The translations under genes were made by a program, and so were the position numbers. Below, in pieces: positions 7,921 through 26,530 of a stretch of 33,348 nt of DNA. Under the pieces are notes generated by a model. The model saw only the letters and a program-made list of their open reading frames with translations, was not told the DNA's origin and ran no database searches. Source of the stretch: Acidobacteriota bacterium (lineage in GTDB: Bacteria > Acidobacteriota > Thermoanaerobaculia > Thermoanaerobaculales > Sulfomarinibacteraceae); NCBI GenBank assembly GCA_022340665.1, contig JAJDNM010000044.1, positions 1 to 33,348 of the forward strand, given 5' to 3'. How positions within the stretch are numbered: the first letter of the stretch is position 1; every line of letters starts with the position of its first letter.

Positions 7921-8171
7921 GTCGATGGTCACCACCCCGCGTAGCCTCGGAGACCGCATTATTCATGACTCTACTGCTGCAAGGCGCTGTTCACCGCGCG
8001 TGGCTGGGCTTTCGCGATGAATCCTCATGAAAAATGCGGGTGAGTCAATCTTCGACAACGCTGAGAAGACAACTACGAGATCACGCGAGGTTCGGAACCG
8101 TGGCGAGGAATGTCGGAACAACTTAACTGGGGCGGGCGTAGTATGAGACGAAGCAACCGCAAGGAGGGCGA

Positions 8172-22419: not shown

Positions 22420-25091
<2,672 letters not shown>

Positions 25092-25095
<4 letters not shown>

Positions 25096-25275
25096 CCCGG
25101 ACTATTCATGAGGGTTCGCCTCGAGGGCGGCGAGGTGTTGTGGCCAGTGGGGTTTGCGAACCGAGGGGCGCGCAGGCGTACTTGACGGTACGTCGAGCAC
25201 CGCGAGGCAAGCGAACACCGTTGGATGCGGCACATCGCCGGCCGCAGCAGAAGCTTCATGAATAGTCCGGGCTAG
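25092..25275. mobile_element. MITE-like 184-bp inverted-repeat element
   Basis: CCCGGACTATTCATGA (25096-25111) is repeated perfectly in inverted form at 25256-25271. Each copy is bordered by CTAG (25092-25095 and 25272-25275), which could be a 4-bp target duplication. The interior of about 144 bases has no gene but contains further imperfect inverted pairing (GTTCGCCTCG against CGAGGCAAGCGAAC). This is the structure of a miniature transposable element or a large hairpin. It provides the TAG stop of the kinase gene. I cannot assign a parent IS family from the window. Confidence 0.75.
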
Positions 25276-25321: not shown

Positions 25322-26530
25322 TCAGTCGGTCATGTTTCGGCGCACGGTCTCGGGGACAGAGCGGAACACCACCCACGCTCCGAAAACACACATCAGTCCG
25401 CCGATCATGAACGGCATCTCGAACGAATGCATTGCCAGCACGCCGGCGATGAGCGGCCCGAGGGCGAGGCCGAGGCCGAAACCGATGGTGACCACACTCA
25501 TCTGCCGCCCCTCGCCGCCGCTGGACGACAAATCGGCCGCCACCGCGAACGCCGGTGCGGCGATGGCGCCGGCCGCAAGTCCCTGGACCAGGCGCACGCC
25601 AGTGAGCTGCACGGTGGAGGTGACCAGGCCCAGGAGGGCGGTGGCCGGGCCCATCAGCACCAGTCCTCCGACGAGCAGCGGTTTGCGCCCGATCCGATCC
25701 GACAACCTCCCCAGGGGCACCTGGAACAGCAGACGGCTGACCATCAACGCGCTGAAGGCGACGGAAAAGCCGAGCGCGGTCTGATCGAGACGCTCGTTGA
25801 ACTGGTGCTCGAGGGTCGTCATCATCGAAAACGAGCTGGCCATGAGGAAGGTCGCCAGTCCCGCGCCGAAGATGCCCGGGCTGATCAGCTTGGGGTCGAA
25901 GATCAGAAACCGCCCGGCGGGCCCTGCGTTCTCTATCGCCGGCGGCTCCTTGACCCACAACGAGACGATGATCAGCCCGAGCAGGACAAAAGCGGCCCCG
26001 GCGACGAACACGGAGGGGAAGCCGAAGGTCACGAGGAGGAAACCGGAGATCAACGGCCCTCCGGCAAACCCCACCATCCGCATCGTGGAGTAGATTCCCA
26101 TCGAGCTACCCCGAGTCTCGCGGCGCGTCGCGACTGCCATCAGCGCCATCGACGCAGGGATCGTCAGGGCCACACCGAAGCCCTGGAGCATACGGAGCAG
26201 CAACAGATCGATGAAGCGGGTGGCGAACAGGAAGCCAATCGTTCCAACGCACATGACGGCCAGCCCGGCGACAATCATCGGCTTCCGACGCCCGAGGCGA
26301 TCGCTCCAGGCTCCGGCGAACGACTGGAGCACGGCAGCAACCAGCCCGTAGAGGGAGAGCAGGAGGCCCACCCGGACCGTTTCCTCGATCCGGATGAGTG
26401 GGGCCGGGAGCTTGGCGACGTACAGCGGCAGGGCGATGAACAGGATGCTGTTGCCAACCGCGTCGCCCAAGCGGGCGACGGACAGCGCGATGACCGTGCG
26501 GTTGATCCCCCAGCTGTCGGCTCTTCCCAT
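25322..26530 (-). CDS. MFS transporter
   Basis: From the ATG at 26530 the protein has 402 residues and about twelve membrane segments, the standard major-facilitator size. The open frame upstream to 26713 is Arg/Pro-rich and is not typical of the family. Motif A appears in the TM2-TM3 loop as GAWSDRLGRRKPMIVAG and again between the two halves as GRLSDRIGRKPLLVGG. These signatures suit a drug/H+ antiporter-like exporter, but the substrate cannot be given. The ribosome site (AAAGGA) lies about 13 bases upstream, longer than usual. The gene converges on the first kinase, with the MITE-like repeat between them, and diverges from the SDR gene. Confidence 0.9.
   Translation of the reverse strand: MGRADSWGINRTVIALSVARLGDAVGNSILFIALPLYVAKLPAPLIRIEETVRVGLLLSLYGLVAAVLQSFAGAWSDRLGRRKPMIVAGLAVMCVGTIGFLFATRFIDLLLLRMLQGFGVALTIPASMALMAVATRRETRGSSMGIYSTMRMVGFAGGPLISGFLLVTFGFPSVFVAGAAFVLLGLIIVSLWVKEPPAIENAGPAGRFLIFDPKLISPGIFGAGLATFLMASSFSMMTTLEHQFNERLDQTALGFSVAFSALMVSRLLFQVPLGRLSDRIGRKPLLVGGLVLMGPATALLGLVTSTVQLTGVRLVQGLAAGAIAAPAFAVAADLSSSGGEGRQMSVVTIGFGLGLALGPLIAGVLAMHSFEMPFMIGGLMCVFGAWVVFRSVPETVRRNMTD

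Follow-up and report, generated by a model that had tools for sequence, protein, structure and literature searches.

Short palindromic repeats such as ERIC, Correia (CREE/NEMIS) and REP/BIME lie near gene ends, are co-transcribed and fold as RNA. The MITE described here has other ends and other hosts and no match in Rfam, and none of these repeats is known to have an interior that is conserved across phyla. At its ends, the MITE is like the insertion sequences of the IS1380 family, for example IS1247 and the one that we found in a filamentous cyanobacterium (L101): the ends start with CC, the inverted repeats measure about 16 bp and the flanks read CTAG or YTAR. Unlike IS1380 elements, the MITE lacks a transposase gene, and its structured interior resembles no IS1380 sequence seen in this study. 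IS1247 of Paracoccus and Xanthobacter is a member of the family with 16-bp inverted repeats and is listed with a 5-bp duplication, as compared with the 4 bp assigned to the MITE here (PMC3281130). The element MITEPye1 of Paracoccus yeei is driven by IS1182, lies in intergenic regions, contains a long predicted stem-loop and is present in one to three copies per chromosome in one species (PMC11578231). It has in common with the MITE described here that it is non-autonomous, with the ends of an IS family, a long predicted stem-loop and an intergenic location; it differs in that the IS family is another one and that the accessible part of the source describes neither covariation nor conservation across phyla (PMC11578231). 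Insertion at a target that contains a stop codon is known from ISPsp10 (IS5/IS427 group), where the target gives the stop to the transposase gene (PMC4133298), whereas the MITE described here would instead preserve the stop of the host gene through the duplication. Neither an IS1380-driven MITE nor any description of these ends or of this structure came up in our search of the literature, with ISfinder and subscription papers outside its reach.

The element and its neighbours

The window (the whole stretch of DNA analysed, 33,348 nt of a contig from a bacterium of the Acidobacteriota) contains two perfect 20-bp arms, at 25092-25111 (CTAGCCCGGACTATTCATGA) and at 25256-25275 (the exact reverse complement), separated by 144 nt. 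This confirmed the inverted repeat that an earlier, sequence-only reading had reported, with ends of 16 bp, or 20 bp when CTAG is included. The 16-bp core, with up to three mismatches allowed, occurs four times in the window, against 0.3 occurrences expected. The symmetry extends past the arms: the stretch of 190 nt is predicted to form a single hairpin throughout, with an energy of -117.6 kcal/mol and a z-score of -12.6 relative to shuffled sequences. The element is devoid of any gene and stands between a gene for a kinase with PD40 repeats and a convergent MFS transporter gene (Table 1). A second copy in the window, absent from the sequence-only reading, has degenerate flanks.

Table 1. Coordinates, strand and supporting evidence of the features in the window
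Feature	Position	Strand	Evidence or remark
Ser/Thr kinase with PD40 beta-propeller repeats, 898 aa	22399..25095	+	Pfam Pkinase 166 bits, PD40 77 bits; stop TAG 25093-25095
Putative left target duplication CTAG, holds the kinase stop codon	25092..25095	.	
Predicted MITE, 176 bp	25096..25271	+ (strand with the more stable fold)	Own-genome blastn; 185 bits (+) and 68 bits (-) with the covariance model; about 61 genome places
Left terminal inverted repeat CCCGGACTATTCATGA, IS1380 type	25096..25111	+	
Conserved 5' internal-loop motif, here CGCCTCGAGG, elsewhere CGUMGCGAG	25117..25126	+	Cross-phylum alignment
Conserved apical stem-loop GGCGTACTTGACGGTACGTCGAG	25175..25197	+	Family and cross-phylum alignments
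Conserved 3' internal-loop motif CGCAGCAG	25243..25250	+	Cross-phylum alignment
Right terminal inverted repeat	25256..25271	-	
Putative right target duplication CTAG	25272..25275	.	
MFS transporter, convergent, downstream	25322..26530	-	Pfam MFS_1 202 bits; gene call
Second copy of the MITE, internally deleted to 88 bp	7953..8040	-	Covariance model 34.6 bits

The left CTAG contains the TAG stop of the kinase gene, in agreement with the sequence-only reading (the start of this gene was placed at 22420 by a codon-usage gene call). That reading had also suggested that the element supplies the stop and that the C-terminus of the kinase may have changed. Comparison of the C-termini speaks against both suggestions. 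The closest kinase homologue (62% identity, in the relative G014) has no element and ends with its own TAG at the homologous residue, the last residues being VIGWLDSLDLE in the homologue and VIGWRDSLGLD in the window. Since the TAG is part of the duplicated target, and since a homologue that lacks the element stops at the equivalent residue, the TAG is most likely the gene's own stop, and the kinase protein was most likely left unaltered by the insertion.

Copies in the genome and in its relatives

A blastn analysis of the own genome with the 184-nt sequence gave 45 matches, in which the other full-length copies are 76-93% identical. The covariance model gave 83 matches. By our count, 22 of them repeat a place that was already matched on the other strand, so that about 61 places remain. 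The search of related genomes found the element in 25 of 60, mostly belonging to the same family or order, and the interior is identical in a relative named Thermoanaerobaculales (L191). The earlier identification of the palindrome as a MITE is borne out by these dispersed places, together with the existence of autonomous insertion sequences with matching ends and with flanking 4-mers that act like a target duplication, both of which are described below.

A different origin would be a conserved terminator or RNA structure native to the intergenic region between the kinase and transporter genes, a reading to which the position between convergent genes and the strong fold would lend themselves. 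It would go with the same palindrome at orthologous places and with no other copies, as the sequence-only reading had pointed out. Contrary to this, the element is dispersed over about 61 places of the genome, and homologues of both neighbours exist without it, including an MFS orthologue in the relative G011 that is 81% identical and has no adjoining element. These two observations already refute a native terminator as the origin of the element. In addition, the hairpin is followed at its right end by CTAG and mixed sequence instead of a T-run, the sole terminator-like match lies outside the element, and no promoter or terminator pattern was seen inside it. The probability that we leave to a native structure is negligible. 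A strict empty site of the window copy was not found, the kinase homologue and the MFS orthologue without the element both being in other synteny.

Two further observations were made during these searches. Contigs of many GTDB genomes (L080, L103, L115, L130 and others) often stop about 100-130 bp from one terminal inverted repeat, and they look as if the assembly had broken inside hairpins. A different short repeat (CATCCCGAGCGGAGCGATCCGCAGGATCGCG...GTCGAGGGACC) is inserted inside kinase genes of a relative (L061, G014:C6, 270-430 and 3070-3210).

Ends and probable partner transposase

The ends of the MITE (CCYGSAYTATTCATGA), together with the CTAG flanks, are the same as those of autonomous insertion sequences of the IS1380 family. 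At least 118 stretches, from GTDB genomes of many phyla, contain the pattern CTAGCCYGSAYTATTCATGA; most pairs are about 95-250 bp apart, and these short-spaced pairs are MITEs. A full-length insertion sequence with the same ends, which the sequence-only reading had proposed to look for, was found in the filamentous cyanobacterium and in Nitrospira. In the former (L101), the 1618 bp between the ends contain a transposase of 449 aa (PF13701, 432 bits; NF033539 IS1380, 370 bits), and in the latter (L316) a full IS1380 copy has CTAG on both sides. The same ends are shared with further autonomous IS1380 elements (L126, L318, L322, L323 and others); the transposase of L126, which adjoins the same end, is 36% identical to that of L101. 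Related ends with CTAR/TTAR flanks were found in plasmid-borne IS1380 copies of Acidovorax, Azospirillum, Bradyrhizobium and Pseudanabaena. Close relatives of the L101 transposase were absent from viral contigs.

The MITE and a partner insertion sequence can also be found in the same genome. Four genomes that carry the homologous MITE contain, beside ends of the form ctagCC..G, either IS1380 genes (G061 and G066) or fragments of them (G067 and G077). The full copy in Nitrospira (L316) comes from this group of genomes, and the IS1380 copies in G066, G067 and G077 are partial. The MITE family has two end types, TTCATGA and TCACCA, and both occur in autonomous elements as well. From these sequence comparisons we predict, with good confidence, that the element is a non-autonomous MITE mobilised in trans by DDE transposases of the IS1380 family. 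The transposase would bind the ends, insert the element at a YTAR tetramer and duplicate this tetramer, and the ends of each MITE would be matched to the IS1380 type that is available (TTCATGA or TCACCA).

In the own genome, a MAG of 153 contigs with 97% completeness, a search with PF13701 found no IS1380 gene. This absence is less telling because multi-copy insertion sequences are often lost from such MAG assemblies; we infer a partner in this genome, which is unproven. The IS1380-like gene of a relative (G005, L201) was considered as a partner and rejected, its ends being different.

The TA core of the target, and an inverted correlation between the bases that adjoin the element, would also suit a MITE that is of the IS630/Tc1-mariner or IS5 type and inserts at TA or YTAR. 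Against such an assignment, every autonomous element found with these ends has an IS1380 transposase, no IS630 transposase was seen beside them, and the own genome contains neither DDE_3 (PF13358) nor DDE_Tnp_1 (PF01609). Its probability is very small, and IS1380 transposases are retained here as the predicted source of mobility.

Probable target duplication and insertion at gene ends

In the 49 copies whose ends are clear, the left and the right flank are in most cases both YTAR. As the sequence-only reading had remarked, CTAG is palindromic, and on its own it is uninformative; other flank pairs favour a 4-bp duplication. Identical pairs in direct orientation were found in other lineages (TTAG/TTAG in five cases and TTAA/TTAA in two), and the insertion sequence of Pseudanabaena has CTAA/CTAA, again direct and identical. 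Within the own family, the first and the fourth flank bases associate directly (p = 0.002 and 0.0007). The outermost bases of the flanks have no inverted association (p = 1.0), whereas the innermost ones, next to the element, do (p = 0.0002), and none of the 37 non-CTAG flank pairs with clear ends in this family is exactly identical. The best reading of these flanks is that CTAG represents a 4-bp target duplication; a shorter duplication of TA keeps some probability, given the inverted association of the inner bases and the lack of identical pairs among the 37. Under either duplication, the pre-insertion site is CTCGACTAGACG, with the kinase's own TAG. The target at this locus would be C-TAG at the end of the kinase gene, and the first duplicate would keep the stop of the gene and leave the protein unaltered. 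Safe insertion would in this way have a simple explanation, since the YTAR target doubles as a stop codon that is restored by the element's own duplication.

Gene ends at the target are frequent in the family. When ORFs of at least 200 codons were considered, 24 of 132 sides in the own family stop exactly in the duplicated target, as compared with a mean of 0.16 per other offset, and 31 of 170 sides do so in loci of other phyla, which had been picked for CTAG at one end (0.18 per other offset). Codon-usage scoring identified a gene that ends in the duplicated target at 22 of 66 copies. Pfam-named genes with this arrangement include infC, which encodes translation initiation factor IF-3 with a complete C-terminal domain, and genes for an ABC transporter, an aminotransferase and others. 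Stops supplied by the element also exist: genes that miss the stop of the target run to the TGA of ...TTCATGA, at offset -13, where ORFs of at least 150 codons gave a smaller peak, with 8 of the 132 sides in the family and 12 of the 170 in the distant loci. At L014 and L232, for example, the gene is read through the target as far as the TGA of the terminal inverted repeat, so that the element provides another stop along with a few additional residues. At another locus (L009, G000:C124), one duplicated target holds the stops of two convergent genes, which encode a DUF3667 protein and an FMN oxidoreductase.

CTAG is rare in the own genome, with about one site per 3.8 kb in a gene-called sample of 433 kb, and the 115 sites of this sample are divided into 62 in genes, 15 at stops and 38 in intergenic regions. 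That about one third of the copies lie exactly on gene ends follows from the scarcity of CTAG in coding sequence and from the stop codon that it contains in one frame; the target preference, together with the loss of insertions inside genes, explains the stop-codon pattern. A targeting of stop codons beyond the preference for CTAG was considered and is unnecessary, as the share of own-genome copies that lie on stops (10 of 25) does not differ from that of the non-coding CTAG sites (15 of 53; p = 0.31). The better-folding strand is antisense to the gene that stops in the target in a ratio of 17:9 in the family and 13:5 elsewhere, neither of them significant alone.

Fold and conservation of the interior

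The alignment of 54 copies of the family gave a hairpin of 49 pairs, 32 of which have compensatory double changes. A strand-neutral test of the Watson-Crick inner pairs along the tree counted 70 changes to G.U and 20 to A.C (p = 1e-7), while C>T and G>A changes occur equally often in the family (91 vs 87). In 53 of the 54 copies, the + strand is a better folder than the - strand (-108.5 vs -85.9 kcal/mol). The decay to G.U over A.C and the consistently better fold of one strand point to selection on a single strand, probably as RNA. Outside the own family, the preference for G.U over A.C is weak (16:15, 17:9, 7:5 and 10:0), and column-wise in the cross-phylum alignment it is 12:6, which is not significant.

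Beyond the ends, the interior is homologous in Nitrospirota, a Proteobacteria MAG, Gammaproteobacteria, Myxococcota, Krumholzibacteria and an Eisenbacteria MAG, and more weakly in Planctomycetota; 16 of 24 genomes gave matches, from 2 to 58 per genome with both strands counted. An alignment of 20 elements from several lineages revealed that the helices between the motifs have been mostly rewritten. Despite this, standard pairs occupy 90.3% of the pair cells, as compared with 71.3% in shuffled and 35-42% in slid controls, both partners have changed in 43 of the 54 pairs, and covariation scores 0.540, as compared with 0.196 in shuffled and 0.09-0.15 in slid controls. The support of the helices by compensatory change thus exceeds both kinds of control, and in helices 4, 5 and 6, inside the ends, every pair has changes on both sides. 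Within the interior, conservation is highest in CGUMGCGAG, which follows the left end, in CGCAGYAG, which precedes the right end, and in the apex, GGCGUAC-loop-GUACGUCGAG. The strand defined by homology is the better folder in all 20 elements. These alignments demonstrate that the predicted structure of the interior is conserved across phyla. Selection has likely acted on a single strand, and RNA is the probable, still unproven, form in which it was selected. A comparison with Rfam gave no match for the window stretch at E values of up to 1, and six homologue loci had none that reached the gathering score.

Covariation without a functional RNA could also arise in an ordinary IS1380 MITE whose palindrome is kept by DNA processes only, namely template-switch correction at replication and master copies that seed subfamilies. 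Long perfect hairpins and near-perfect palindromic copies do exist (L386), the requirement for matching ends explains the share of the covariation that falls in the terminal inverted repeats, and long stem-loops with no known RNA function are frequent among MITEs, MITEPye1 being one of them (PMC11578231). Correction should, however, bring back Watson-Crick pairs equally on the two strands, yet the changes to G.U far outnumber those to A.C in the family while C>T and G>A are balanced, and the same homology-defined strand folds better in every element across phyla. Further, the internal-loop and apical motifs, which correction would erase, are among the most conserved parts. DNA processes alone are therefore a possible but doubtful explanation.

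A related alternative is that a structure of ssDNA, and not of RNA, was selected, such as a hairpin that arises on one strand when the DNA is replicated and that a host protein or the transposase recognises. Strand-specific ssDNA hairpins are known from the IS200/IS605 and REP systems, and G.T wobbles are tolerated in ssDNA hairpins too. Contrary to this, IS1380 transposases belong to the DDE family and work on double-stranded ends, and we consider selected ssDNA unlikely. In the reading that we favour, selection would maintain the interior in the form of a folded single strand, and this strand would most likely be RNA, with ssDNA as a lesser possibility. As a guess at its role, a folded RNA flanking the 3' side of the gene, in the form of a stable structured tail or an antisense tail, may make insertion at gene ends tolerable, so that copies persist.

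Taken in full, the putative family would comprise mobile structured RNA hairpins of about 140 nt that have spread across phyla (Acidobacteriota, Nitrospirota, Planctomycetota, Myxococcota, Gammaproteobacteria, Krumholzibacteria and others) by means of IS1380-family ends, and that carry conserved motifs in their internal loops and at the apex. Its members would swap end types, settle on stop codons and join, or be antisense to, the 3' ends of genes. We see an even chance that this description is correct. If selection does act on the interior as an RNA, repeats of a kind usually called junk would carry an uncharacterised RNA through several phyla, with up to dozens of copies in a genome and a placement at gene ends. 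The copy in a genome of the Krumholzibacteria (G069, L386) is nearly perfectly palindromic and is a candidate for palindrome correction through template switching.
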